Positions 92 to 14,300 of a DNA stretch of 20,557 bases are shown one piece after another. The notes beneath the pieces are model-generated. The model was not told the origin of the DNA, did no database searches, and worked only from the letters and a program-made list of their open reading frames with translations. Numbering within the stretch: the stretch's first letter is position 1; every line of letters starts with the position of its first letter. Source of the stretch: a virus; IMG/VR virus record IMGVR_UViG_3300023180_000508, positions 1-20,557 of that record. One strand, given 5' to 3'. Position numbers and translations under genes: made by a program.

Positions 92-123
92 AAAAAAATA
101 CCCCTAGTTTCCTAGAGGTATTT
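92..123 (-). terminator. Factor-independent terminator closing the halogenase operon
   Basis: Read on the minus strand, AAATACCTCTAG (123-112) pairs with CTAGGGGTATTT (107-96). This gives a 12-bp stem with one G-U pair, closed by a GAAA tetraloop and followed by a run of U (95-92). It starts five bases after the halogenase stop codon at 131-129. The 3' arm carries the only SD-like AGGGG of the next gene, and the late promoter overlaps the 5' arm. Confidence 0.85.
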
Positions 124-126
124 ATA
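119..126 (-). promoter_or_regulatory. T4-type late promoter for the virion gene at the left edge
   Basis: The minus strand carries an exact TATAAATA, the T4 late consensus recognised by the phage sigma factor gp55. With the usual spacing, transcription would start near 113. That would remove nearly all of the 5' arm of the overlapping terminator hairpin and leave the AGGGG at 105-101 unpaired. Two other TATAAATA sites in the window (11294-11301 and 19843-19850) lie in the same position just before minus-strand virion genes, which supports the call. Confidence 0.65.
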
Positions 127-128
127 AA

Positions 129-1385
129 TTATGTTATCAATGGTTGATTTGACCATCTAATCTTTGGTTTATTATTTTCAGTCCATTGATCAGTCATCCA
201 TCTGTGGACATATAATAAGTCCTGTCTACTGTGTTGAAAAATTCTATGAATAGATTTTCTATTTTGTAAAATTTTTTCATCGTCAGTTGAACTAATTAAA
301 AGATCTAATGCTTCAATGCTAGCTGATGGATGATAGTACATAAGTTCTCTAGCTTGTTTTGTTTTATCATTCCAGAATTTACTATCTTTAAATATAGATC
401 CATATTGATAGTGGAATGCCAATTCTTGCTCATAACCAATAATAGACTCACGATATGCCAAATTAACTTTATTCATTTCAAGTTGATCAGGTCCAAAATG
501 TAAATATTTTGAAATCATGGTTGCCATCTCACTATACATTAAAACTGAATAAGCCTGTAGAGGTTCATTGAAAAATAATCTACTGCCGTTAGCAGCAATC
601 CTTTTCGATTCCAAAAGATACTTAGATTTTTTGGGAGTCCATTTAAATACTTTTCCTTTTTTACCTCGTTCACCCAGTTTTTTTACTACATCATTTTCAG
701 AAATATAATTTGTATTAAACAAGTATCCCTTTCTCATAATATTTTCTTTTGGGAATGGAAGATTAAACTCCCAACCATCTTCAGTGGCAAGATGTACTGT
801 CAAATCTTTAGATTCTAACTCATCTGTTACCATGAAATCACTGTCTCTATACAAAAATGCCGCATTTACAGTATGAAATTGTGGGGTAATTAAAAGATTC
901 GGATCATAGTTCCATCCAGTACAATTTACTACTAGATCATATTCTTTACTATTTACATAAACCTTTGATCCACGTTCTTCTAAAGTTGTTACTTTCTCGG
1001 CATAATATTTGACACCAATTTCTTCCAACTTCTCGTTCAAAAATTTATTTAAAACTACGGTATCAAAATGAAAAGATCCAATTCCATTATTAGCATCTGG
1101 GGGATCTCCTCCAAAACCATGAACCCATGGAGTTCCCTTACCCCAGTTAATAAATGTTACTCCTCTTTTCCTCGAAATTAAACAATCATTGATCATATCC
1201 TCCATCTTTAAACCGAGGGAAAATGTCAGCAAGTGTGGAAAATGCGGTGTCGTAGACTCTCCCACGGAAACTGGTGGTATTTCTGGATCATAAAAAATTT
1301 CTACATCAATGCCAAATTCAATAAAAGAACATGCCTGAATAATTGCTGATGTTCCTTTTCCTATAACTGCCGCTTTTTTCCTCAT
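129..1385 (-). CDS. Flavin-dependent (tryptophan) halogenase-like protein
   Basis: The 418-aa protein matches the FAD-dependent tryptophan halogenase fold. It has an N-terminal dinucleotide motif (VIGKGTSA, residues 7-14; the family usually has GGGTAGW) and VGESTTP at 41-47. Lys73 in SRKRGVTFINW aligns with the catalytic lysine (Lys79 of PrnA). WEFNLP (205-210) corresponds to the WxWxIP signature, with Phe for the second Trp. EPLQAYS (274-280) stands where PrnA has EPLESTG, so the second Glu (E346 of PrnA) is Gln277 and the chloride-binding Ser-Thr-Gly is replaced. Family members use FADH2, O2 and halide to halogenate aromatic substrates; cyanophage Syn10 encodes a related enzyme shown to iodinate. 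A four-base ATGA overlap joins it to the preceding oxygenase gene, and a GGAG lies 10 bases before the start. It is slightly short for the family (about 500-540 aa). The fold is secure; the activity and the halide used are not. Confidence 0.88.
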   Translation of the reverse strand: MRKKAAVIGKGTSAIIQACSFIEFGIDVEIFYDPEIPPVSVGESTTPHFPHLLTFSLGLKMEDMINDCLISRKRGVTFINWGKGTPWVHGFGGDPPDANNGIGSFHFDTVVLNKFLNEKLEEIGVKYYAEKVTTLEERGSKVYVNSKEYDLVVNCTGWNYDPNLLITPQFHTVNAAFLYRDSDFMVTDELESKDLTVHLATEDGWEFNLPFPKENIMRKGYLFNTNYISENDVVKKLGERGKKGKVFKWTPKKSKYLLESKRIAANGSRLFFNEPLQAYSVLMYSEMATMISKYLHFGPDQLEMNKVNLAYRESIIGYEQELAFHYQYGSIFKDSKFWNDKTKQARELMYYHPSASIEALDLLISSTDDEKILQNRKSIHRIFQHSRQDLLYVHRWMTDQWTENNKPKIRWSNQPLIT

Positions 1386-1930
1386 ACTATAAGATCTCCG
1401 TTTACATTAAATGATAAAATAATTCTTTCTTCTTCTGATGTATTTGGATTTGTAAAATGATTTATAAATGATGGGAAGAAAATTAATGACCCTTCCCGCA
1501 CATTTCTAAATTCTTCTCTGATGATGTGACCAGTTCTAAAATCATTGAATGGTGCTATAAACTGAGTTGAAGAATGTACTTTATGATTAAATTTAACAAA
1601 ACATACAGCACTAATACCAGTCATACCATGATTATGAATATCATGATGCATTCCTTTTTTTCCAATTTCGATCCAAGAATTTTTTACTTCATATTCACCA
1701 GTTGTTGATATTGTTTTATATAAATCACTTATTTCTTTTTCAAAAATTCTGGCAACATCTTCATTGTAATTTGTTTTTTCATCATAAAAATCTGTCAAGA
1801 TATTCTCTGGACCAGTTTTTGTAAAATTGTTTTGATGAACTAATTTTTCAATCTCAGATTTTTTTTCTTTCCAATTAGAAACTCTTACATGAAATAATGG
1901 AATTGGAAATAAATCAATTTTAATAAGCAT
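1382..1930 (-). CDS. 2OG-Fe(II) oxygenase-like protein (2OG-FeII_Oxy_5 type)
   Basis: This is a 182-aa protein. I place the start at the ATG at 1930-1928 rather than at the in-frame ATG 24 bases earlier, because GGAGGAG sits seven bases upstream of the chosen start. The core HxH motif is H99-N-H101, followed by GMTGISAVCFVK. A distal His158 lies in FINHF and Arg169 in ERIILSFN. These are the expected metal ligands and 2-oxoglutarate-binding Arg of the small 2OG-Fe(II) oxygenase family common in cyanophages. Family members are predicted hydroxylases with mostly unknown substrates. The start overlaps the end of the upstream oxygenase gene by 11 bases, and the stop overlaps the halogenase start (ATGA), so the three are translationally coupled. 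An extra His-His-Asp precedes the HxH (95-97), which leaves the exact iron ligands uncertain. Confidence 0.82.
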   Translation of the reverse strand: MLIKIDLFPIPLFHVRVSNWKEKKSEIEKLVHQNNFTKTGPENILTDFYDEKTNYNEDVARIFEKEISDLYKTISTTGEYEVKNSWIEIGKKGMHHDIHNHGMTGISAVCFVKFNHKVHSSTQFIAPFNDFRTGHIIREEFRNVREGSLIFFPSFINHFTNPNTSEEERIILSFNVNGDLIV

Positions 1931-2519
1931 CTTTTCTCTCCTCCAAACAAACATTATAAGAGATTATGATTTTTTCACCATCACATTCTTGTTTTGGAGT
2001 TGAGTGTAATTGATCACTTGGAAACATCAAAAATCTACCTGGGATACACCTAACAGGAACAATAAATTGACTATATTCAGTTGGTCGATCGGGATTAGAA
2101 TATAAATTTTTAACTTGATCATGTAATAAAAGAACGTTTTCTTTTTGAGTTTTTATATAAAAAACACCAGATAAAAAACATCCATTATGAACATGCGGAA
2201 AAAGAAAATCACCTTTACCGCTAATGTTAAACCACATACTCTGAATAAAACAATCTTCAGATTTTTTTAAAGAATATCCCAATTCTCTGGCATAAATTTT
2301 TGCTGTGGATAAAATAAAAGAACTTAGATCTTTAAAAAGTTCATTCTTATGTAAAGAGCAATCATGATCATATGATGAATTTACATGTAATGTGGAACTT
2401 TTGAAAGTATTATTTTGGTTGTCAGAAATGTAATTTTCATATTCGCTTAATTTTTCTTTTAGAATATTATCTTTGAGTAAAAATGATCTAGGAAAAATTT
2501 GTATAATATCTTTATTCAT
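1920..2519 (-). CDS. 2OG-Fe(II) oxygenase-like protein (2OG-FeII_Oxy_5 type)
   Basis: This 199-aa protein is of the same type as the next gene downstream. Its central block MWFNISGKGDFLFPHVHNG is followed by SGVFYIK, giving the HxH pair H109/H111. A distal His172 lies in DQLHSTP and a C-terminal strand reads EKIIISYNV. Lys183 occupies the place where the paralogue has the 2-oxoglutarate-binding Arg, so co-substrate binding may differ. No Shine-Dalgarno sequence is visible upstream. The gene starts only five bases after the preceding 94-aa gene, so coupled translation is likely. It probably acts in the cytoplasm on a small molecule or protein; the substrate cannot be read from the sequence. 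The low identity to its neighbour suggests an old duplication or separate acquisition. Confidence 0.82.
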   Translation of the reverse strand: MNKDIIQIFPRSFLLKDNILKEKLSEYENYISDNQNNTFKSSTLHVNSSYDHDCSLHKNELFKDLSSFILSTAKIYARELGYSLKKSEDCFIQSMWFNISGKGDFLFPHVHNGCFLSGVFYIKTQKENVLLLHDQVKNLYSNPDRPTEYSQFIVPVRCIPGRFLMFPSDQLHSTPKQECDGEKIIISYNVCLEERKDAY

Positions 2520-2524
2520 AATTT

Positions 2525-2809
2525 TTAGTTAATAACAACTGTTGGACCCGACCCTGTTTTTACAGCTTGTTCCATAAGGTAATGCTCTACCATACGAAAA
2601 TCGTCAAATACTCTAATTTGATCTTCAAATTCTACCCACCAATAAACATCTTCCTCCCCAACATATGCTGGATTATAATCAGATGCTTCTAGTTCTTTTG
2701 TTACATGCTCCTTTAAAACAACTTCAATAACCATGTGAGTATCTTCACCATGCTTTTCTTCTGCTTTAATAGCAAGTTCCATAATTGGTAGTTCACCAAC
2801 CAATGCCAT
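2525..2809 (-). CDS. Conserved hypothetical protein, first gene of the halogenase operon
   Basis: This 94-aa acidic protein has no family I can name. It starts at the ATG at 2809-2807, eight bases after a good GAGGAG. The sequence has an N-terminal helix-like part rich in Glu and His (EEKHGED), then IEVVLKEHVTKELE, and a DVYWWVEFEDQIRVFDDFR block. It has no signal peptide, membrane segment or cysteine. Five bases separate its stop from the next oxygenase gene, making it the first cistron of the operon that ends with the halogenase. Its position suggests an accessory or regulatory role for the cassette, but that is only inference. Confidence 0.75.
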   Translation of the reverse strand: MALVGELPIMELAIKAEEKHGEDTHMVIEVVLKEHVTKELEASDYNPAYVGEEDVYWWVEFEDQIRVFDDFRMVEHYLMEQAVKTGSGPTVVIN

Positions 2810-2870
2810 GTACGGTTCTCCTCTTAATCAACTCAGATCTATAATATATATACTTTGTAAAAAAATACTA
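2810..2870 (-). promoter_or_regulatory. Leader/probable promoter region of the minus-strand halogenase operon
   Basis: The 114-base divergent gap must hold the promoter for the 94-aa gene unless the operon is transcribed from elsewhere. On the minus strand an alternating TATATATATTAT tract lies at 2852-2841. The hexamer TATTAT (2846-2841) differs from TATAAT by one base, but no good -35 box lies 16-18 bases upstream. TTTACA (2861-2856) is too close. No TATAAATA late motif is present. The region is likely but the exact promoter is unresolved. Confidence 0.35.
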
Positions 2871-2899
2871 TTGACGGTAAACCTTACCTGTAGTATAAT
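2871..2899 (+). promoter_or_regulatory. Strong sigma70-type promoter for the plus-strand operon
   Basis: TTGACG (2871-2876) and a perfect TATAAT (2894-2899) are separated by exactly 17 bases. Transcription would start around 2906, leaving a very short leader before the AGGA-type ribosome binding site and the ATG at 2924. This is a host sigma-type promoter of the sort used for early phage genes, unlike the TATAAATA late sites in front of the virion genes. Confidence 0.85.
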
Positions 2900-2923
2900 T
2901 TAAATTAAATTGACGAGGAAAAA

Positions 2924-3346
2924 ATGAGCATCAAAATTTGTTTACTCAGAAGTGGAGAAACTGTAATTGGTAATCTCAAAGAAGTTCTTGATCCACAAGA
3001 AAATAAATCACTCGGGTATAAAATTGAACACCCATATGTCATCGATTATCAATATAGAAAAGCTTTAAAATTAGGCGATGAAGGTGTTGAAGGTGCTGTT
3101 GGAAATGATGCTGAATACGCTTTTAGGGCATGGGGCGCACTTTCAGCAGAAAGAGAATTTAATTTTAATTACGATTTTGTTGATGTCATTTACAAACCAC
3201 ATAAGGCAGTGGAAGAATCATATAACATGATCGTCAATCACTGGATTGAAGAAAATACTCATAGTATTACAGTAGAAGGAACAAAATCAGTCACAACTAG
3301 GGGAATTGACCTCACTCAGCAACTTGATATGAGTGAAGGAGAGTGA
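2924..3346 (+). CDS. Conserved hypothetical phage protein, possible small-barrel (LSm-like) N-terminus
   Basis: This 140-aa protein is preceded by GAGGA six bases before the ATG and by the strong promoter at 2871-2899. The N-terminus (SIKICLLRSGETVIGNLKEV, then a strand containing YKIEHPYVIDY) has the alternating strand pattern of a small barrel. I have seen similar short proteins in T4-like marine phages, and an LSm/Hfq-like fold is possible but unproven. The middle (residues 47-75) is Gly- and Glu-rich, and the C-terminus (after residue 97) looks helical and then polar. It is the first gene of the plus-strand operon; its stop lies two bases before the chosen start of the next gene, whose ribosome binding site is inside this coding sequence. 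Confidence 0.75.
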   Translation: MSIKICLLRSGETVIGNLKEVLDPQENKSLGYKIEHPYVIDYQYRKALKLGDEGVEGAVGNDAEYAFRAWGALSAEREFNFNYDFVDVIYKPHKAVEESYNMIVNHWIEENTHSITVEGTKSVTTRGIDLTQQLDMSEGE

Positions 3347-3348
3347 TA

Positions 3349-4170
3349 ATGAAAATTGAAGATTTTAATCTATATGATTACAAAGATGCTTTTCAAATTA
3401 ACGAAGACTTTGAAATCACCACAGGTGAATATCAAGACTTAAAATATATCACTGTAGATAATTTTTTTCTGTATCCAGAAAAAATAACTGAAATTTTAAA
3501 AAATATTCCTATCAATGATAGAACTAAAGTCATTGAAGAGTATAAAAAAAGTGGAGTTGATATTTATGAAAATCCATCATTAGTTCAGTACCTATCCAGT
3601 ATATCTTTTGAACCAATCTCATACATTTATTATAAAATTTTGAGTGAAGAAGATTTCATTCATCATTCTTATGATCCTATGACTGAATCTGAACAACTTG
3701 GAGCTGAATTAACTCAATTTGTTTACTACACTAACATTTTCCATCCGAAGATGAATCATATTAGTCATAACTATATGCCGCATTTTGATAAATTTCAGTA
3801 TGTTTCTAGTGTCTGTTTAAGTGAAACCACTGAGGATACTGGGATCTCTTTTTATACTCTAGATCATGAAAATGAATCATATCAATCTATTGAATCTATT
3901 GTAAACATAGATTCTTTGGAAACTAAGAGTAATATTAGAGATAGATTAAATTCGATGCATACGCCTGATTATGAAGTATCGGAATATTATAATTCAGATC
4001 ATATCGAAAAAAATTCTTTATTTAAAAAATATTTCACAATACCATGTGAATATAATAAACTAATCATTTATCCTGGTATTTTCTGGCACGCCGCACAGTA
4101 TAATTCAGAAGTAAATGACAACATTAGATATACATTTAATGCTGGATACACACCAACTGATAATTTATGA
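3349..4170 (+). CDS. Oxygenase-like protein with H-x-D...H...R pattern (DUF6445-like), paralogue 1
   Basis: This 273-aa protein starts at the ATG at 3349, which has AAGGAG seven bases upstream; an in-frame GTG six bases earlier is too close to that site. The core is PHFDKFQYVSSVCLS, giving H145-x-D147. It continues to a GISFYTL strand, a long variable insert, then LIIYPGIFWHAAQ (H247) and RYTFNAGY (R260). H-x-D...H...R is the iron facial triad plus 2-oxoglutarate Arg of dioxygenases. The layout resembles DUF6445-type proteins, which I associate with tryptophan-halogenase operons of bacteria. The next gene is a diverged tandem copy. The product is probably a cytoplasmic oxygenase on the same pathway as the halogenase encoded on the opposite strand; the substrate is unknown, and the family name needs confirmation. 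Confidence 0.72.
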   Translation: MKIEDFNLYDYKDAFQINEDFEITTGEYQDLKYITVDNFFLYPEKITEILKNIPINDRTKVIEEYKKSGVDIYENPSLVQYLSSISFEPISYIYYKILSEEDFIHHSYDPMTESEQLGAELTQFVYYTNIFHPKMNHISHNYMPHFDKFQYVSSVCLSETTEDTGISFYTLDHENESYQSIESIVNIDSLETKSNIRDRLNSMHTPDYEVSEYYNSDHIEKNSLFKKYFTIPCEYNKLIIYPGIFWHAAQYNSEVNDNIRYTFNAGYTPTDNL

Positions 4171-4958
4171 TGAATGTTATAGATGAAAAAAATAATATAT
4201 CCTTATCAGAGTTTATTCGTTACACTGATAAGGATATATTAGAACTTACTAAAATTAATGAAAACTGTTCTATAGAAAAATATAAAGTTGAAAAATTAGA
4301 ATATGTAAAAATATACAATTTATTTTTGTATCCAGAAGATCTAAAAAAATTTTTATGTAAATTTCCATGTGAAGATAGATTTTTAAGCCTATCAGAAACT
4401 GGATCTGAATTAACTTCATCCGCTCCAGGTTTTCAGCAAACTTTTGATAAACATTACTTCAGAAAAATTTCTGAATTTATATCTAAAGTAATGCAAGAAA
4501 ATAATTTAAGTCAACATTATTGGGCAGTTCCATCCTGGGAATACTATAGTAATTGTATGTATTCGGGAATGAAATCATATCAAAAAAATAATCTTCCCCA
4601 TGTAGATCCATTTGATTATGCCTGTAACATGTATTTGTCAAATATAGAAAATACAGGAACTACATTTTTTACCTTTATTGGTGATGAACATGAGTATTAT
4701 GATGTAAAAGAATTACATAGAAGAAGTAAAAAAGATCATAATTTATTCTTAAAACAAGTTTTCGAAAATTCTATGGATAAAGATTTTGTTGATTGGAAAA
4801 CTTTTGACGGTAATTCTAGATACAGAAAATATCATATTATTGATGCTGAGTATAATTCAGCATCAATTTACAAGGGATGTTATTGGCATAGTATTAGATT
4901 TGATTCTCAAATAAAAAATCAAATTAGATATTCTTTAGTTGGAAGTGTAAAAAAATAA
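4167..4958 (+). CDS. Oxygenase-like protein with H-x-D...H...R pattern (DUF6445-like), paralogue 2
   Basis: This 263-aa protein overlaps the stop of the previous gene (ATGA at 4167-4170). No Shine-Dalgarno sequence is visible, so translational coupling is likely; a second ATG follows immediately and could be the true start. It is clearly related to the upstream protein. NLFLYPEDLKKFLCKFPCEDR (residues 51-71) matches NFFLYPEKITEILKNIPINDR there. PHVDPFDYACNMYLS supplies H145-x-D147, CYWHS supplies H241 and IRYSLVGS supplies R254. Identity outside these blocks is low, so the duplication is old. All predicted ligands are kept in both copies, which argues against one being a dead paralogue. The stop codon abuts a bidirectional terminator. 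Confidence 0.72.
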   Translation: MMNVIDEKNNISLSEFIRYTDKDILELTKINENCSIEKYKVEKLEYVKIYNLFLYPEDLKKFLCKFPCEDRFLSLSETGSELTSSAPGFQQTFDKHYFRKISEFISKVMQENNLSQHYWAVPSWEYYSNCMYSGMKSYQKNNLPHVDPFDYACNMYLSNIENTGTTFFTFIGDEHEYYDVKELHRRSKKDHNLFLKQVFENSMDKDFVDWKTFDGNSRYRKYHIIDAEYNSASIYKGCYWHSIRFDSQIKNQIRYSLVGSVKK

Positions 4959-4977
4959 CCCTCTCCTAGGAGAGGGT
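4958..4977. terminator. Bidirectional terminator between convergent operons
   Basis: ACCCTCTCCTAGGAGAGGGT is a perfect 20-base palindrome that folds as an 8-bp stem with a CUAG loop. It is followed by CTTTTATT on the plus strand and by TTATTTTTTT on the minus strand, so it can stop transcription from both sides. Its first base is the last base of the plus-strand stop codon (4956-4958), and the minus-strand gene ends 11 bases away at 4988. Confidence 0.88.
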
Positions 4978-4987
4978 CTTTTATTAA

Positions 4988-5308
4988 TCAGAATTTTCTT
5001 GAATCATCAGATTCGTCTGGTGAAGCATCATTCCACATTTTAATAACTTTATTTTTAATATTTGGTTCACTATCATGTTTAACTAGCAAAGCTTCTTTAG
5101 CACTCAGGGCAAGTACAAAACTTTGTCTAGCTGCTTCATAATCAGCTAATGTTTCCTGAGAAGGATTGTCAGTACCATCAGTAATACGATGATATTTAAA
5201 GTTACAATCTCTTAATGCTTGCTCATAAATTTCAAAGGTACATGTACTACCTTTTTTTCCAGCAAACATTCTTCTATCAACTACTGTATTTGGGTTGTAT
5301 TCAATCAT
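4988..5308 (-). CDS. Conserved hypothetical protein downstream of the large fibre gene
   Basis: This 106-aa protein has its ATG at 5308-5306 and AGGAG nine bases upstream. I do not recognise the family. It opens with IEYNPNTVVDRRMFAGKKGS, has a central helix-like stretch (ETLADYEAARQSFVLALSAKE), and ends in an acidic, polar tail (DASPDESDDSRKF). It has two cysteines and no signal or membrane segment. It lies 23 bases after the 1899-aa fibre-like gene and is the last gene before the terminator, so it is probably co-transcribed late. A small protein in this position could help assemble or attach the fibre, or be a minor virion protein, but nothing in the sequence proves this. Confidence 0.7.
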   Translation of the reverse strand: MIEYNPNTVVDRRMFAGKKGSTCTFEIYEQALRDCNFKYHRITDGTDNPSQETLADYEAARQSFVLALSAKEALLVKHDSEPNIKNKVIKMWNDASPDESDDSRKF

Positions 5309-5331: not shown

Positions 5332-8300
5332 TTACGCTTGTGATTCTTTCCATGTTACGCGAGCAGAAGCTGCGTATGGAGTTGCTGTACTTACACCAGA
5401 AGAGTCAATTACTTCTGCGATAATAGTCAGAAGGTCGGGACCATTGGGATAAACACCATCACCGCCAAGAATTGAGTTACTCAGGGAAGAAATCTCACTC
5501 AGATTATAGTTAGTAGTATCTGAAGTGAAGTCAGCACCACCAGTAGCGCGGAAGGAGAGAATTCTCTGACCGCCCGAAATTGTTTCATTTGGCTGGTGTT
5601 TTACAAGTTGACATAGAGATGGTGAAGATACATTTTCATAAAGGTCAGTACTTAATTCTGGATTCAGGACCAGAGAGATTTCGGAATCGTGCGTAACCTG
5701 TACACCAACTTCCTGAAGAGCAAGTTGCATTCTGTTGATAATTTCTCTCTGACCCAGAGAACCCGTGATTGAAGAGTCAACTGAAGGTGCGAGTCTGATT
5801 GAAATCAGCGGCATGTAGGAGGGAATCAAGTTTTCAGATCCAGCAGGCGCACCAACGTTGAAGGTTGTGCCAGAAGGAATGTCACCGCCCATCGCATTTC
5901 TAATAGTTGAAGCATATCTTCTTGGGAAGACACTCTGCGAACCATCGAGATACTGGATGTAAACATAATATGTAGAACCAGAAAGATATGTTCTGGAGTC
6001 AATTACACGACCATTTGAGAAATATCCATTACCAGCACTTGATTGATAAAGGAGGGTGTTAACTGTCAGTTTAGAAGATTCTGAGGATGCGAATGGAATT
6101 CTGATAAAGTAGATTGAGTTATACCAGGAGATTCTGCTCTCAAGAACAGCAGAAGTACCATTGGAAGATGATGTCTGTGTAGTAGCGTTGGTGAACTTAA
6201 GAACGTTACCTGACGCAGTGAACAGATACGCTTCGTCATCCTGGAACATACCATCCATAATAACCGAAGTACCCCAGTGGAACAGTGATGGTACGAAAGT
6301 TGGAGTACCGATGTTCTCAATTTCATAACGAGCAGGCAGGTTACCTGAACGGAAATATGATTCTCTCAGTCTGTTATTGTGCTTGTATTCGTGGACGTAC
6401 TTAACGTGACCATTTTGATCCTTAAATCCGTAACGAATCTTACCAGCACCATACCAAGAGTAATCCATGTAACACATCTGGATTCTATTAATATCCAGAA
6501 TGAATCCAGAAGGACCATTACCATCACAAGTATCAATATTCCAATCATCTCTTCCAGTCACAACATCAATAGTCTTAGTACCAATAACGTCAGAATTTGT
6601 TACACCGCGATAAGCTGGTTGAACAACAAGATCTGTATCATTTCTTACTTTAACGACCTTATGTGTCATACCACGAATAACAATCTTATCACCTTCTGTA
6701 AGTTGTGATGTGAATCTAGTATCAGTACCATGAATCAGAGAACTATTGGTAGTTACTTGAAGTTTTCCTGTAAGTTGTTGTACGGATGATCTTCTTACAC
6801 AATTTAAGGTTTGACCATCATATTCAAAGAAGAATCCATTCTGGAAATCAAACATACCAGCACGAACAGAAGATCCAGTCCAATTAATAACACCAAACTG
6901 TGGGAATCCACCAGAAGCGGAAGTATTATTTGGAAGATCTTTGACGATAATATAGAATTCGAAATCATTAATAATTTCAGCAACCGCAAAGTTACCATTA
7001 TAGACGCTAACGTCAGATTGTGTAATCGTAATTACAGTATTTTCCTTTACATAGTGAGGTCTATTTGCTCTAATTCTAGAGTATTCAGCAGCCTCCAGTT
7101 CTACAGATTCACCAGTTTGATTAGCAGTTAGAGGAGTGGAAAGTCTTATAGTTGTTGCGTCAACAATTTCGTCAATACCAGTACCTTCCACGCAACCAGT
7201 AACATCAGTAGCAACTGTCATATTAATATTAAGATTAGCAGTTCCTTCTGCTACTGTTACTAAATCTTGACCAGCAAGACCAGTAAATGTATAGATTCCA
7301 GGTGCTCCTTGTGGTTCATAAGCAAGTTGAACAATCTGATTCTGTGGAATAAAGTTAATAGCAAATGATGTCTGAATACCTTTACCTGACTGATAACGGA
7401 AATACTTTCTGGTTTGACGTGAAATCATACCATCAGGTGAATTAGACGTACCGATTTCCATACCACCATCAAATGGTCTGTGGAGGAAGTATCCATCAGG
7501 ACGTACATAGATGTAAGTAGGAATGAAGTACTTAGCATTAGAATCAGTGAATGAAAATTCTGTATCTACCAGCATTTCCTGGTCATCTTTAATCGCAGTA
7601 ATTCTAGCTGTTTCAAGTGTGCCACTAGGACTTGTAGTGGTATTAATTACTGTAATGTAATCGCCAATCTTGAAGTAACGCTTGAATTGGGTATCAGTAC
7701 CTGTAATAATTCTAGAATTAATACCAATTGTTAAAGTACCAGCACCTGTAACCAATCCAGACAGATTAGCAGTAATTAATCTATGTGTTCCAGTTCCTGT
7801 ACTAGTAAGAGCAATAGGAACTGGGGGATCAGCGAGAGCATCAGCAGCAGTTGCCGCTAATTGAATCTTAGAATCATCTTTAACAATTACAAAGTAGTCA
7901 GTGTTTGTGGTAAGACCACCAATATCAGTATTTCCATTAGCATCGTAAATTACTTTCGTTCCAGGAGAGAAGAAGTGCTCAGCAATAATAATGAAACTAT
8001 TTGTAGTATCAACATCATTAGTACCATCAAATGGTTTCTTACCAGGAGAAATCTTGAATGGAAGTGTTACTTCAAGAGTAAAATCATCAACTTTTCTCGT
8101 GGTCGTATAAGAACCATCAACAGCACCGAATGTAGCAGAAGCATTTTCAAATGTATGAAGACCAGAACCAGTACCAGTAATATCAACTTCATTAGTATCA
8201 CCTGGGTTAGCAAGTAACTGGAATCTATTATTATTGATTGCTCTAAAGTAATATGTTTGGTTATCAGTTAATCCAGGAATAATTGTTGCCGCACTGTCCT

Positions 8301-11031
8301 TAGTAACAAGAATTAGCTCACCATTGGAGAACTGGTTGTCCGCGATATACATACTATTTTTTGTTGGGTTTGTGAAAGTACCACTGAATGTATAAACACC
8401 ATTGGTTTCTCTCAGTCTATATTCAGAAGCACCTGTTGATGATTTAAGTCTAAATCTATTCTCATCAACTTTCTCGATGTATACACTAGAACCTGTGTTC
8501 AGGGTTCCAGTACCACCATCTTGATCAGACCAATAGCTAATAGGGTCTCCACTATCAACTGTAAGAGTTACATTATTGTTTGTCACATAACCATGATTTT
8601 GTGAATATAAGGTATCATTTGTACTTGTATTTCTTGCGAGAAGAATAAAGTACATGTTTGTGTTACCATCGGATGAAATACTGTTGAAAGTTCTATTTAC
8701 ACTATTGTTATAACCAAATCTATTGGCATTCCATCCATTACAATCCCCCTGACATCTCCAGTAACTATTATTGTCACCGTAAATTCTTAAACGATTAGAA
8801 TCAATCGCTTCACCCCAAATATTAGAGGTCCAGTAATAACGAGCATTTTGGCGGTTATATCCACCCATTGTATAACCATAACTTCTTCTATCACTAGTGT
8901 TTGAATAAACATTTGGGTTAACACCTCTATTTTCATCATCCGTGATGAAGTCGTATGATCCCTGTGAAGTAGCTGTTGTACCTAATGGTAAAGTAACTCT
9001 ATGGTAACCATAAGTTCTCCAGATACCAAATCTATCATACCACTCATAGTTATAGAAGAAGTAATTATGACCGCCATATCCAGGTCTTGATACGGAGAAT
9101 GATGCTACAATATCCCAAGCTTTTCCGCCCAAACCATATGTGCTATTTCTTGGTGCCGTATTGTTGCCAAGATCATGACCAGAATATGTACCGCCAAATT
9201 CGCGGTAATATGTGTGGAAGTAAGCATACCAATCTTGGTAACCCTTTGTTTCTCTGTAAACATTATATACCAAACCTAACTGGTGAGGTCCATTATTAAA
9301 TGTACCGCCAGCCTGTAAGTTCTTGAGTACATTACATCTTTGTGAATCATGAAGTCTAATAGTATCTTCATCAATTCTTTCAGTATAGTATACTAACATT
9401 CTGTTGAGACCACCAACTGGAAGATCTCCAGGAGCTGGGTAATAGAGAACAGCATAACCATTCTGGAAGTTATGACCTGGAAGAGTAATAGTATCATTAC
9501 TATAATTAACATCATCTTCCGTAAATCTTAAGGTATATGTTGATTCATAATCATAATTAATTCCTTCATATTGAGTCGTTGTACTTACAATAGTTCTAGT
9601 GTCAGCCTCATCAACAAATGGTCTACCATCATCAGCAGTTGCTGTTGGATCAGTAACATCAAGAGCTTTTGGTGAAATTGAGTTAACAAAATAGAAGTTT
9701 GTATTATCAGCAAAACCGTGTTCAGTTACTGTTCTAAGAACAACTTTTGTGTCTGAAGCAACAACACTAGTAGCATCACCACCCATTCCAGCATGAGTAT
9801 CGCAATAATAAAACAGATCTGGAGTAGAATTGGTTGTATAAATTCTCAGGTAAGCACCAGCAGTTCCAGCAGTACCTACCTCATATACAAAAGTAGTATA
9901 TTCCGTTCCAGAATTGTGAACTCCATCATCCGTTTCACTAAATTTAAATAAATGTGTTGATACTGATGAATCGCTAAGATCAAATTTATAAATTGAATTT
10001 TTTCTTAACGCTAAATCTGGTTGTTGTTCGCCATCAATAAAAAATACGTTACCTAAATCAATTACATTACTAACTGTGTATGTGCTAGCAGATCCAGCAT
10101 CACTAATAACATCACCATTACTAAATGTTCCTGAGACATTATAAAGTTCAACAGCATTATTAGTAATTTTTCCAATAATACCTTCAGCACCAGAATCACT
10201 ATTTACAACAGTGCCAACTGTCCAAGTTGATGAAATGGCCGTTCCAACATCAAGATGAATTACTGCTTTTACTTGTACAGTTTTTTCAAAATAATCGCTA
10301 GTAATACCAGTAGCACCATCAAGGGAAATTTGAGAACCTTGGAAAAATTCTCCAGGAATAATCGAAGTATAAGTTCCTTGTAATTCAGTTGATGTTAACT
10401 GCTTAGCTCTTCCCTTATATGTAAAGGTAGTATTAGTTGGTACTGATTGAATCAGATATGTACCTTCGGCAGTAATACTGGAAAGACCAGTAATTGTAAT
10501 TGGTGTACCACTTGTAAGACCATGATCAAACGCAGTAGTTACTGTAATAATTTCACTGTCCTGAGTGGATTCTACTGATTCAATAAACTGAATCGTAGTA
10601 TCAGCAGTACTGGAGAAGAATGAAGGAATCTGGTTGATCAGCTGAAGTGTTTCCCACTTAGATGCCTGAGGACCGTATTCAAAGTCGGTATCAATCAGGT
10701 TTTCTGGAGTTGAAACGCGGAACTTAGAAACTGGGTCAACATATGTTTCAGATGGTTCAAAGGCAACATAGTCCTTTTCATAGAAAATCTGAAGAGTGTC
10801 CGTATCGGACATCTGATTTGTATCATATGCAAGAGTGACTACAGTTTCCTCTGCTTCGGCATCATACTCAATATTTGAGACTGCCAGAGTCGGATCAGCA
10901 AAATTATAAATGTTTACATTATCGGTGACATTTGTGATAAGAAGAAGTCTATCGTGAGAGATATTTCCTTCAATTCTTACTTGTCTCGCCGAAGCGTCAA
11001 AGCTATACTTGTGTGCTAATTTCTTTGCCAT
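5332..11031 (-). CDS. Very large composite tail-fibre-like virion protein (1899 aa)
   Basis: The protein reads continuously from ATG at 11031 without a signal peptide. Visible parts in order: an N-terminal strand-rich domain (1-135) including a DTDTLQIFYEKDYVAFEPSE type block; phage beta modules with HGLTSGTPITITG and TFTYKGRAK (160-210); a cupredoxin-like segment (about 325-425) with H360, C410, H413 and M416; a Tyr/Trp/Gly-rich part (586-780); two related modules ending FRAINNNRFQLLA and FVIVKDDSKIQLAA (about 905-1090); and two GTDTxF...GD modules (about 1105-1160 and 1430-1475). The blocks RQTRKYFRYQSGKGIQ (1205-1220), MFDFQNGFFFEYDGQ (1393-1407) and WNIDTCDGNGPSGF (1497-1510, continuing to about 1575) are ones I know from large structural proteins of marine T4-like phages. 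It likely forms part of a fibre or baseplate appendage that contacts the host; the exact T4 counterpart is unclear. Only a weak AAGGA, at long spacing, precedes the start. Confidence 0.85.
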   Translation of the reverse strand: MAKKLAHKYSFDASARQVRIEGNISHDRLLLITNVTDNVNIYNFADPTLAVSNIEYDAEAEETVVTLAYDTNQMSDTDTLQIFYEKDYVAFEPSETYVDPVSKFRVSTPENLIDTDFEYGPQASKWETLQLINQIPSFFSSTADTTIQFIESVESTQDSEIITVTTAFDHGLTSGTPITITGLSSITAEGTYLIQSVPTNTTFTYKGRAKQLTSTELQGTYTSIIPGEFFQGSQISLDGATGITSDYFEKTVQVKAVIHLDVGTAISSTWTVGTVVNSDSGAEGIIGKITNNAVELYNVSGTFSNGDVISDAGSASTYTVSNVIDLGNVFFIDGEQQPDLALRKNSIYKFDLSDSSVSTHLFKFSETDDGVHNSGTEYTTFVYEVGTAGTAGAYLRIYTTNSTPDLFYYCDTHAGMGGDATSVVASDTKVVLRTVTEHGFADNTNFYFVNSISPKALDVTDPTATADDGRPFVDEADTRTIVSTTTQYEGINYDYESTYTLRFTEDDVNYSNDTITLPGHNFQNGYAVLYYPAPGDLPVGGLNRMLVYYTERIDEDTIRLHDSQRCNVLKNLQAGGTFNNGPHQLGLVYNVYRETKGYQDWYAYFHTYYREFGGTYSGHDLGNNTAPRNSTYGLGGKAWDIVASFSVSRPGYGGHNYFFYNYEWYDRFGIWRTYGYHRVTLPLGTTATSQGSYDFITDDENRGVNPNVYSNTSDRRSYGYTMGGYNRQNARYYWTSNIWGEAIDSNRLRIYGDNNSYWRCQGDCNGWNANRFGYNNSVNRTFNSISSDGNTNMYFILLARNTSTNDTLYSQNHGYVTNNNVTLTVDSGDPISYWSDQDGGTGTLNTGSSVYIEKVDENRFRLKSSTGASEYRLRETNGVYTFSGTFTNPTKNSMYIADNQFSNGELILVTKDSAATIIPGLTDNQTYYFRAINNNRFQLLANPGDTNEVDITGTGSGLHTFENASATFGAVDGSYTTTRKVDDFTLEVTLPFKISPGKKPFDGTNDVDTTNSFIIIAEHFFSPGTKVIYDANGNTDIGGLTTNTDYFVIVKDDSKIQLAATAADALADPPVPIALTSTGTGTHRLITANLSGLVTGAGTLTIGINSRIITGTDTQFKRYFKIGDYITVINTTTSPSGTLETARITAIKDDQEMLVDTEFSFTDSNAKYFIPTYIYVRPDGYFLHRPFDGGMEIGTSNSPDGMISRQTRKYFRYQSGKGIQTSFAINFIPQNQIVQLAYEPQGAPGIYTFTGLAGQDLVTVAEGTANLNINMTVATDVTGCVEGTGIDEIVDATTIRLSTPLTANQTGESVELEAAEYSRIRANRPHYVKENTVITITQSDVSVYNGNFAVAEIINDFEFYIIVKDLPNNTSASGGFPQFGVINWTGSSVRAGMFDFQNGFFFEYDGQTLNCVRRSSVQQLTGKLQVTTNSSLIHGTDTRFTSQLTEGDKIVIRGMTHKVVKVRNDTDLVVQPAYRGVTNSDVIGTKTIDVVTGRDDWNIDTCDGNGPSGFILDINRIQMCYMDYSWYGAGKIRYGFKDQNGHVKYVHEYKHNNRLRESYFRSGNLPARYEIENIGTPTFVPSLFHWGTSVIMDGMFQDDEAYLFTASGNVLKFTNATTQTSSSNGTSAVLESRISWYNSIYFIRIPFASSESSKLTVNTLLYQSSAGNGYFSNGRVIDSRTYLSGSTYYVYIQYLDGSQSVFPRRYASTIRNAMGGDIPSGTTFNVGAPAGSENLIPSYMPLISIRLAPSVDSSITGSLGQREIINRMQLALQEVGVQVTHDSEISLVLNPELSTDLYENVSSPSLCQLVKHQPNETISGGQRILSFRATGGADFTSDTTNYNLSEISSLSNSILGGDGVYPNGPDLLTIIAEVIDSSGVSTATPYAASARVTWKESQA
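8692..9276 (-). other. Tyr/Trp-rich segment of the 1899-aa protein
   Basis: Residues about 586-780 contain roughly 26 Tyr and 8 Trp in 195 residues, with much Gly, Asn and Arg, in runs such as WYAYFHTYYREF and NYFFYNYEWYDRFGIW. Two cysteines sit close together in YWRCQGDCNGW (C760, C764). This composition is quite unlike the Thr/Ser/Gly beta modules on either side. Aromatic-rich surfaces are typical of carbohydrate contact, so a receptor-binding part is a reasonable guess. Confidence 0.6.
9757..10059 (-). other. Cupredoxin-like domain within the 1899-aa protein
   Basis: Residues about 325-425 run from FFIDGEQQPDLALRKNSIYK through STHLFKFSETDDG to DLFYYCDTHAGMGG. A His in the first half and C-x2-H-x2-M near the end are the type-1 copper ligand pattern of plastocyanin-like domains. 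Similar YYC..H.GMGG segments occur in other marine phage virion proteins. Copper binding is inferred and not shown. Confidence 0.6.
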
Positions 11032-11073
11032 TTTTAATTAAAGTCCTTTATGATGTTTACGGTAATATATCTC

Positions 11074-11262
11074 TCACCAACCCATTCCCACTGCCATCGC
11101 CATCGCTAATCGCTTCGACGCAACTTCAAATCCACTAGCATGGACTCCATCATGAACAATCAGCGTTTTCTTATCAGTATCGACAGTGATTTCACCTTCA
11201 GCGCCTGTAAAAGTTTGGTGCTGGGCAGTAGTGCCTCGACGAAACTGTACTTGGGTAGTCAT
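11074..11262 (-). CDS. Short stand-alone fibre domain, Mtd N-terminal-like (62 aa)
   Basis: The 62-aa sequence opens TTQVQFRRGTTAQHQTFTGA and continues EGEITVDTDKKTLIVHDG. This pattern belongs to the small N-terminal domain of phage tail fibres and of the major tropism determinant (Mtd_N). In most phages it is followed by a long fibre; here it stops after a low-complexity tail, AMAMAVGMGW, encoded by GCNATG-like micro-repeats. An AGGT lies just upstream of the ATG at 11262-11260, and a TATAAATA late promoter lies 32 bases before the start. It is in the same frame as the 1899-aa gene but separated from it by TGA and TAA codons. It could be a real small decoration protein or the detached head of a former larger fibre. 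Confidence 0.7.
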   Translation of the reverse strand: MTTQVQFRRGTTAQHQTFTGAEGEITVDTDKKTLIVHDGVHASGFEVASKRLAMAMAVGMGW

Positions 11263-11293
11263 GTTCTTACCTAAACGGGTGATTTTCTTCTTT

Positions 11294-11301
11294 TATTTAT
11301 A
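11294..11301 (-). promoter_or_regulatory. T4-type late promoter before the 62-aa and 1899-aa genes
   Basis: There is an exact TATAAATA on the minus strand between the stop of the 2411-aa gene (11309) and the start of the 62-aa gene (11262). Transcription would start near 11288. It probably drives the 62-aa gene, the 1899-aa gene and the 106-aa gene down to the terminator at 4958-4977. Confidence 0.75.
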
Positions 11302-11308
11302 CAAATTA

Positions 11309-14300
11309 TTATATTATCGTACCGAAGATTCTAATTGGACTGAAGAGTTTCAGGACATTGACTGATTCACCAGAAAGTTTGAGTTGAGGTGTTCCTGGTT
11401 GTGTAATTCTGGTGACGCTTGATGGGCTGCTTCCAGAAACTTTGAAGAGATTAACCGAAACAATATCGCCTGGTTGAGCACCAGGAAGTGTCGTGTTAAT
11501 GTCAATGCTTCTGGCAACAGCAGCATTTTTGAATCCGAAGAGTGATCCAGAACCGACATAATCATCAGTCTGTTTCTCGATCGCTCTTCCCGAAGTGCTA
11601 ACATAAGCAAATACTTGATTACCGTAAGTAATCTTAATGTCAGATACTTCGCCAGAAACAGTTGCTGTACCTGAAGTATTGTAAGTTCCCTTAACAAATC
11701 TTTCTTGAGCAGTACCAGATGCCTTGAAGAGCTGAATGCTTTCAACAGCAACGGTCTTGGATTCGGCAGCATTGCCGACAGAGAACAGTGATCCAGAACC
11801 AACAAAGTCTCTAGTTCTTGTGATATTACCAGCACCACTGATAAATTCTGTTCCAGAACCGACATGACTTTGAGCAGATTTAATAACTCCGCGACCCTGT
11901 ACAGTGTAGAGAATTGTATTCTCTGGTGGGTTGGAAGTTGTGGATTCAGTAGCACCACCGATTGCGAAGAGTGAACCGCTACCAGTGAATACTTGAGTCT
12001 TGGACTCGTCTGCGATGCCAGAGATAAACTCGATAACACCTTCAGATACATATCTATCAGTCTGCTTCTCTGTGGCAGTACCAACAAATCTATAGAGATT
12101 TGTTTGAATTTCAGGAACAACAGCAACTGCTTCTGCCGCTCCAGCGTATCCAAAGAGTGAACCAGAACCAGCAAAATCTCTTGTTCTGTTAATTGTGGCG
12201 TTACCGACAAAGTTAAACAGACCAGTAGATTCTTCATCAACTGTTGCCGATTCAGCAGCACCACCAAATCCGAAGAGTGAACCTTCACCAATATAAGGTC
12301 TGCCGAATGCTTCATCACCAGCAACATCAACAGTAATCTCTGCCTTAGTAGCGGCAGAAATTCTGGTGAAGCTATGGTTGGCAGATCCACTGGCAGTGAA
12401 GAGAATAGTGCTTTCGCTTTCAGATTGAGTAACGCTATTCGCTTCACCACCAGCAGCAAAGAGCGAACCTTCACCAGCGTAACCTCTGGTGATAAGAACT
12501 TCATGAGTTACATCAATAGAAGTTCTTCCAGTTCCAATCTCGGTGACAGATACCTTCTGGATTCCAGCACCGTTGAATGTGTAGAGGAATGTATTTTCTG
12601 GTGGATTGACTGTTGTGGAATTCGCTTCTCCACCAACAGCAAATACTGAACCAGAACCAACATGAAGCAGTGAGAAGTTAGTCTTACCTGCTCCTTTGAA
12701 GTCGAACAGTCCAGTCTCAAGATCTGGATTGTAACCAACGATCTCAGAAGCTCCACCAACACTGAACAGTGATCCAGAACCAGTAAAGATCCTGCGGATC
12801 TTGAGATCTGGAGTACCATATACCTTAAAGTTATCTGTTGGGTCAACGTTACCAAACAGATTAAATCTGAGTTGAAGATCTGGAGTACCAGACAATCTTG
12901 GTGAACCATCTGGGCGTGATGTCCAAGCTGGATTCCATTTCGAAGGTGAAGTGCCAGAGAAGGTGAAGAATGTAATGTTTTCAGCATTAACATCTTCAGA
13001 TATAGAGATGGACTCTGCTCCACCACCAATACCAAACAGCGAACCTGAAGTTCCAGGATCCTTATCATCGCCATAGTATCCATAAACATTGATCTTTTGG
13101 GTCGCGGAAACACCACTGGTAAACGCAGATCCGCCAATGTTTCCATAAACGGAATTGACATAACGAGGAGATGGTCTATAATTTTTCCACTCAAATCCAA
13201 CTTTGTCTGTATACAGAGTAAACTGGACACCTTTACCGCCAACATAAGAACCACGGAATTCTTCTTCGGCAGCACCAGTGATGAAGATCTCGCCATAAGA
13301 TCTCCACCATGGGCGGAATCTAACAGCAGCATTGGGAGCAAGTGGAGTCTCCTCCTTGATCTTGATGTTTCCAATGCCAATATATCTTTCAACATGCTTC
13401 TCAATCGCTCTACCAGTAAACTTGTAAAGGAATGTGTCCTCGGGAGTCTGAGCAGAGAATACTTCAGCTGCGTTGCCAACAGAGAATAGTGAACCAGAAC
13501 CAACCCAATTAGCAAGTTTTGCTGGTTGAATTACGGAACCAGCAATCTTGAATAATCCATAAGGATATTCATTGCCAGTAGTAGTAATAATTCCACCGCT
13601 ATCAACCTGATCGCTAGTTACAACAGAAACAGAACCATAATCAATCGTTGATGTAGAGGTTGAAGTAATATCACCATAATCAGAAGCAGTTCCATAATTT
13701 ATGTTTGTAGCAGTAAATGCTGTTGAAGATTCATTATAACTATAGGTTGCTCTTTCAACTCTGTCGCCAATACTGAAGAGTGATCCAGAACCATCATAGT
13801 TACCCTTACCGAATGAGAGGGCGGAATATCCCTGACCGAACTCGAAGAGTACAGTGTTCTCTGGGGGATTGCTGGTAACCGATTCAGTAAGTCCAGTGAA
13901 TGTAAACAGAGAACCTGAAGTTCCAGGATCTTTATCATCACCATAATATCCGTATACTTGAATCCAGCGATCTGATGAAGCACCACTGAATGCGAACAGA
14001 CCAAATGGTTCAGTCGTATCAGTTTCAACGATATTACCAAAGTCTGTATCACCAGAAGCAGAACCAGTTACTGATCCGTAATCAACAGTAGTTGTTGTTG
14101 GATCGGAAATGCTACCATAACTACCACCAGGAACGAAGGTAGAAACTGAAGATTCGTTGTAACTATATGCTCTTCTTTCAACTTTATCACCAATATTGAA
14201 CAGAGATCCAGAAGCAACAAAGTCTCTCGCTCTTGGTGTAGCACCATCTCCAGTGATAAAGTATGAACCAAATGTATCATCGGTCTGGGAAACTTTCTCA

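Follow-up and report, generated by a model that had tools for sequence, protein, structure and literature searches.

How did a set of halogenase-like and oxygenase-like genes come to lie among the virion genes of a phage, and what moves together with them? The question is raised by one end of the virus record IMGVR_UViG_3300023180_000508, which in its entirety (20,557 bp, one strand) forms the window analyzed here. The island in question has seven genes in two divergent arms, placed between the gene for a giant virion protein of 1,899 aa and the T4-type neck gene gp13. An earlier note on this DNA had described it as a self-bracketed, moron-like cassette, a description that did not hold, as island and giant virion protein move together and the left terminator belongs to the phage backbone. 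Our analysis makes it probable that the island is a lineage-specific accessory module of a T4-like cyanophage, sharing its history with the giant protein and joined to the neck genes at a promoter/terminator element 5' of gp13.

From left to right, the window contains the start of gp13 (minus strand), a 41-nt element, HAL-OXY1-OXY2-S94 (minus), a divergent gap, S140-D1-D2 (plus) and a bidirectional terminator, beyond which lie S106, the 1,899-aa virion protein, a 62-aa Mtd_N protein, a 2,411-aa protein and two more structural-type genes. Gene calls agree with the seven genes in two divergent operons that had been noted earlier. The features are as follows (2OG, 2-oxoglutarate; ORF, open reading frame):

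1–87, minus: 5' end of gp13, T4-type neck protein (full-length 264-aa copy in contig L002)
88–128, minus: fused late promoter/terminator element, 41 nt, found 5' of gp13 whether or not a phage has the island
129–1385, minus: HAL, short flavin-dependent-halogenase-like protein, 418 aa (PF04820, 2e-23)
1382–1954, minus: OXY1, PF13759 2OG-Fe(II)-type oxygenase (PF13759, 1.5e-11)
1920–2519, minus: OXY2, PF13759 oxygenase, island core gene (PF13759, 1.3e-13)
2525–2809, minus: S94, small conserved 94-aa protein, core gene (alignment, relatives)
2871–2899, plus: sigma70-type promoter of the S140-D1-D2 arm (TTGACG-17-TATAAT)
2924–3346, plus: S140, LSm-like protein, core gene (PHROG 431; model)
3343–4170, plus: D1, DUF6445 protein (sub-threshold DUF6445 profile match, alignment)
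4167–4958, plus: D2, DUF6445 protein with 2OG-Fe(II) oxygenase fold (DUF6445, 1.8e-7; model)
4957–4978, no strand assigned: bidirectional terminator between the converging D2 and virion block, part of the island (terminator prediction, fold)
4988–5308, minus: S106, small gene between the giant protein and the island (ORFs of similar size in relatives)
5332–11031, minus: BIG1899, giant virion protein (PHROG 5838 virion structural protein, 3e-181)

Exchange junctions at the gp13 element

The window record stops inside gp13, of which the first 87 bases are present; contig L002 comes from the same virus (99.93% identity across the 4,192 bp shared) and carries the whole gene. Between L002 and L008, 3,195 bp align at 99.4% identity, the first 1,400 bp without a difference, beginning at the border between the HAL stop codon and the 41-nt element. 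Upstream of the junction OXY2 is only 39% identical, and L008 has the PF13759 oxygenase X (L008 671–1294) in place of OXY1 and HAL. Similarity also begins at the element in the pairs L188/L211 (90.5%), L192/L200 (96.0%), L191/L202 (95.7%) and L201/L210 (82.9%), upstream of which the sequences are either unalignable or patchily similar at about 65–84%. Since similarity starts at the element in all five pairs, the element is a backbone boundary, kept by gp13 whatever stands upstream.

In the element, the late promoter TATAAATA at 119–126 (minus), ahead of the gp13 start at 87 (minus), overlaps a terminator stem (96–123) that folds at −15.7 kcal/mol. The same fusion is found 5' of gp13 in the island-free contig L010 and isolate S-SCSM2R, and the left terminator, occurring with or without the island, is therefore a part of the backbone rather than the island's own. 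No second copy of the element was found on the loci read. The earlier note had placed terminators at both outer ends of the island; both hairpins exist, but only the right one (about −14 to −16 kcal/mol) is the island's, the left one belonging to the promoter/terminator of gp13. Hairpins occur at the right-terminator position in L003, L009, L011 and L012, and none was found at that position in island-free L010. Intrinsic terminators are abundant across the window (23, vs 9.0 ± 2.8 in shuffles).

Conflicting histories on the two sides of the junction

A tree of the C-terminal 560 residues of the giant virion protein matches that of the island, not that of gp13–gp16. In approximately unbiased (AU) tests, the gp13–gp16 data reject a grouping of L009 with L154 (AU p 8e-6) and the island core rejects L012 with L154 (AU p 3e-64), as does the C-terminus of the giant protein (p 6e-75); a grouping of the window with L008 is rejected by the OXY2 data (AU p 9e-5). 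The giant protein of the window is nearest to that of L003 (72–74%), which its island likewise resembles. For gp13 the identity to L003 is 77%, compared with 86–92% to L009, L010 and L012, and the end of the 2,411-aa protein is 38% identical to its L003 counterpart versus 53–55% for L009 and L012. The island and the giant protein share one history and gp13–gp16 another, and the exchanged unit is therefore the virion protein plus the enzymes; on at least one occasion a block of about 11 kb, spanning the giant protein and the island, seems to have been swapped whole.

Two further features of this region concern the giant protein and its surroundings. In L010 (438–9941, plus) the protein has 3,167 aa rather than the about 1,900 of island-bearing phages, with the extra stretch in the N-terminal half. 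Directly before the giant virion gene, a 62-aa gene (11074–11262, minus) encodes little beyond an Mtd_N (major tropism determinant N-terminal) domain (6e-18), with a match of 61–69 residues in all four relatives compared.

Occurrence in related phages

Presence and absence at the locus had been suggested as a check for insertion, and empty sites do occur. In island-free L010, whose gp13 is 89% identical, the giant protein runs straight into the gp13 promoter/terminator, and isolate S-SCSM2R has the same layout without the island. About 60 more distant gp13 loci (52–57%) also have no island. About 20 related contigs, on the other hand, keep a five-gene core (divergent D2-D1-S140 facing S94-OXY2) at the same place and in the same order. 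Retention of the core here by about 20 contigs of one lineage speaks against an isolated insertion, and these fixed neighbors are half of what the earlier note had said would count against it, the other half being shared late expression.

The slot between OXY2 and gp13 is variable. It holds OXY1 and HAL in the window/L002 and in L188/L189, OXY3, OXY1 and HAL in L003, and X in L008, L009, L191 and L154, and it is empty in L011, L012, L155, L200, L201 and others. HAL is thus found in three lineages only among the related contigs, which makes it an optional part; OXY1 occurs at the island locus only alongside HAL. The slot of L003 has an extra 207-aa gene ahead of OXY1 (8803–9426, plus), with HRD...H in its sequence and no convincing Pfam match, which may be a further oxygenase.

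In another phage lineage (L165–L172, e.g., L166 at about 9635–13000), DUF6445 and PF13759 genes lie directly 5' of gp13 on the virion-gene strand, without a divergent island. One record of this lineage, of 191,983 bp, has two psbA/psbD-type genes.

The nearest isolates for gp13 of L002 are Kyanoviridae (up to 57.5% identity), and the terminase of relative L003 is 75% identical to that of Synechococcus phage S-BM3; judged by such sequence resemblances, the window derives from a T4-like, Kyanoviridae-type cyanophage, of whose genome it is a fragment. The host is likely, though not proven, to be a cyanobacterium, as talC is present on two of the larger relatives' contigs even if psbA was not found on these contigs (up to 132 kb).

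Promoters and base composition

The sigma70-type promoter at 2871–2899 (plus) matches the consensus at 11 of 12 positions. Promoter-like matches across the window are no commoner than in shuffles (75 vs 77), but this one recurs 21–28 nt ahead of S140 in all seven viruses compared, window included, and is probably real because of this recurrence at the same spot. The strong promoter pointed out earlier for one arm is thereby borne out, and it belongs to the island. No comparable promoter was found ahead of S94 for the HAL arm. Virion genes with T4 late promoters do flank the island on both sides, TATAAATA being found before gp13 and, for the other-side virion genes, at 11301 (minus) and 19850 (minus). 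The island may follow an expression schedule of its own, as suggested earlier, but a late-type TATAAATA also precedes the S140 arm in L011 and L012.

The low GC content reported from single lines is exact in its counts (16, 18, 28 and 28) and extends to the whole island, at 0.296 against 0.391 in the flank. The same dip is seen in the islands of L003, L009, L011 and L012.

Predicted functions of the island proteins

One halogenase and four oxygenase-like genes had been proposed, and profile matches return the same set: one PF04820, two PF13759 and two DUF6445 proteins, D1 being sub-threshold. OXY1 and OXY2 score 45 and 51.6 bits for PF13759 (cut-off 27). Together with X they show HxH, not HxD, at the presumed iron site, which reads HVH...H in OXY2 and H[TLR]H in its relatives; HxH may be usual in this family.

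The structure model of D2 (predicted local distance difference test, pLDDT, 92) is a double-stranded beta-helix; its closest PDB structures are all 2OG oxygenases, with protein hydroxylases at the top of the list (P. putida P4H, OGFOD1, PHD2 and mimivirus lysyl hydroxylase). Its HxD...H motif and 2OG-binding Arg are intact in every relative read. D1, placed in the same fold by alignment only, has HxD...H...R intact in the window and L003 (2 of 16 distinct D1 proteins), the triad being lost in the remaining relatives, L188 included. A tie between D1 activity and the presence of HAL, hinted at by seven loci, offers one independent contrast only and was rejected, because L188 has HAL together with a broken D1 triad. 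The label 'minor coat protein' (PHROG 1644) for D1 and D2 was likewise dropped in favor of the oxygenase fold. The same label is carried by gp213 of Synechococcus phage syn9 (L006 8887–9543), which aligns with the DUF6445 oxygenases including HxD...H...R; this may be a misannotation, or a sign that the protein associates with virions.

S140 is LSm-like (PHROG 431), with a model at pLDDT 72 and a best match to 3by7 at a template modeling (TM) score, normalized to the target, of 0.82–0.91; a scan seeded with S140 returned only the window's own virus. Relatives of S94 (41–45%) are found in other phage contigs (L195–L199), away from gp13 and without island genes.

Cyanophage halogenases and 2OG oxygenases are well known, their substrates not (PMC3037559, PMC2984593, PMC10452541). 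HAL scores 83.4 bits for PF04820 (curated cut-off 21), and its best relative of solved structure is VirX1 of cyanophage Syn10 (PDB 6QGM; 2.1e-14). Both are encoded by marine T4-like cyanophages, and HAL shares with VirX1 and the PF04820 family the profile, the flavin adenine dinucleotide-binding signature at its start and the catalytic lysine. This residue, Lys73 of HAL (Lys79 of Thal/RebH), is kept in 55 of 55 aligned phage proteins; halogenation requires Lys79 of Thal (PMC7948982). HAL differs from VirX1 in its length (418 vs 531 aa), in WEFNLP for WxWxIP, in EPLQA for EPLES (Gln277-Ala278 replacing Glu358-Ser359 of Thal) and in its place in a four-gene arm with oxygenases. In a motif survey, a clade of short phage proteins (about 370–420 aa) shared these changes wholly or partly, reading WxFxxP throughout with one exception (WxLxLP), whereas longer phage halogenases retain EPLES or EPLEA plus WxWxIP. 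From its sequence, HAL is best filed as halogenase-like, and not as a halogenase. At two other short-halogenase loci (L090 8612–12400 and L118 9989–11747) the neighbors look like 2OG oxygenases, and that of L090 includes a methyltransferase-like gene. Bacterial DUF6445/halogenase clusters would be a possible parallel, but no DUF6445 was found in the control genomes, and a literature search turned up no such cluster.

Proposed model and alternative explanations

In the model that we favor, exchange would proceed by homologous recombination on both sides, in the conserved gp13 region and among the virion genes, and the promoter/terminator would be retained through each exchange because gp13 needs it. 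By established chemistry, D2, OXY1 and OXY2 would carry out 2OG-dependent hydroxylation and HAL a flavin-dependent oxidation or halogenation, with reduced flavin assumed to be supplied by the host; D1 is probably an active or pseudo-enzyme partner of D2. We infer that the island enzymes may form a single pathway. Co-inheritance and placement tentatively suggest that they act on proteins, most likely the giant virion protein of the phage or a surface protein that it meets, although we hold this with less than even confidence. The DUF6445 and PF13759 genes before gp13 in L165–L172 fit a tie to particle assembly without proving it. A stronger version, which we think rather doubtful, has the module dedicated to the giant virion protein, oxidizing or halogenating the particle surface and being swapped with that protein as a host-range or anti-recognition unit, so that the short viral 'halogenases' would form a group of their own, flavin oxygenases directed at proteins.

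Several points weigh against this picture. Co-inheritance with the giant protein could be plain linkage beside a recombination hot spot, and the window/L008 pair could involve an assembly chimera, although the other four pairs are independent of that event. The fold matches of D2 hold at superfamily level only (TM 0.3–0.57). Two of the three HAL-linked D1 proteins have an intact triad, that of L188 being broken. The DUF6445 profile, furthermore, gave no match among the neighbors of short-clade halogenases in P-TIM40 and S-SCSM1, which rules out a general halogenase-DUF6445 partnership.

The likeliest alternative, though one that we put well below even odds, is auxiliary metabolism, in which the oxygenases alter host 2OG or other metabolites, a role put forward for the 2OG oxygenases of cyanophages generally, and HAL is a passenger. 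2OG-Fe(II) oxygenases are found in 14 of 16 cyanomyoviruses, with a proposed 2OG/NtcA role (PMC3037559), and phrog_81 is filed among auxiliary metabolic genes. Such a role does not, however, predict placement next to gp13 or co-inheritance with a virion protein, and the nearest folds of D2 are protein hydroxylases.

Morons of temperate phages are extra genes of odd composition, with their own promoter, between genes that are adjacent in relatives. The island is likewise inserted between such genes and odd in composition; a conserved promoter precedes its S140 arm, and none is recognizable for the HAL arm. A strict moron would be a self-sufficient cassette, inserted in one piece, with a promoter of its own and its own terminator at either end, and its expression would be separate from that of the late genes. 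The empty sites of L010 and S-SCSM2R, the low GC content and the island-owned sigma70 promoter and right terminator are all as expected, but the label fails at the left end, where the terminator is gp13's. The core is moreover fixed in about 20 contigs, the content changes piecemeal, the giant virion gene moves along and late-type promoters precede S140 in L011 and L012, all of which makes a strict moron improbable. Unlike the temperate phages that carry morons, this one is presumably lytic.

We consider it equally improbable that the island makes a small molecule, a halogenated and hydroxylated aromatic produced during infection, in the way that VirX1 halogenates free aromatics. VirX1 is the nearest solved structure to HAL and accepts many substrates and halides (PMC7948982), but HAL is shorter (418 vs 531 aa) and, beside its catalytic Lys, lacks the Glu and Ser present in PrnA, PyrH and Thal; the island has no biosynthetic or export genes.

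That the junctions are assembly artefacts, with contigs joined at a short conserved element, is very improbable: the window does end 87 bases into gp13, where a strain-shared assembly graph could fork, and the element, of about 40 nt, hardly varies between strains, but the same join is present in the window record and L002, and a chimera hardly accounts for five pairs from different records (four with 4–17% divergence) together with island and giant protein trees that agree against gp13–16.

Relation to known systems and significance

The favored model, an accessory module exchanged together with the giant virion protein, has partial precedents. Composite early promoter/stem-loop motifs (PeSLs) mediate module shuffling in T4-like phages (Arbiol 2010 and Comeau 2014, as cited in PMC4503421). 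Here too the exchanged modules end at a fused promoter and stem-loop, but as far as that account describes them, PeSLs have an early promoter and many mobile copies, whereas the gp13 element has a late promoter and one fixed copy. The hyperplastic region between g15 and g18 of cyanomyoviruses (Millard 2009, as described in PMC2984593) likewise places accessory genes inside the structural module, the present island lying instead between the giant virion protein and g13. In the tail-fiber adhesin swapping of T-even phages (Tetart 1998, as cited in PMC3797505), a large surface-protein block is similarly exchanged between conserved motifs; the block described here adds an enzyme set.

The genetics of the locus give a testable lead, namely enzymes whose inheritance follows that of one giant virion protein and whose exchange has a defined boundary. 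Phage pairs that are near-identical in gp13–gp16 but unlike in the module offer ready-made comparisons in the search for the substrate, and with this junction promoter-terminator shuffling, known from early regions, also takes in a late promoter among the virion genes.

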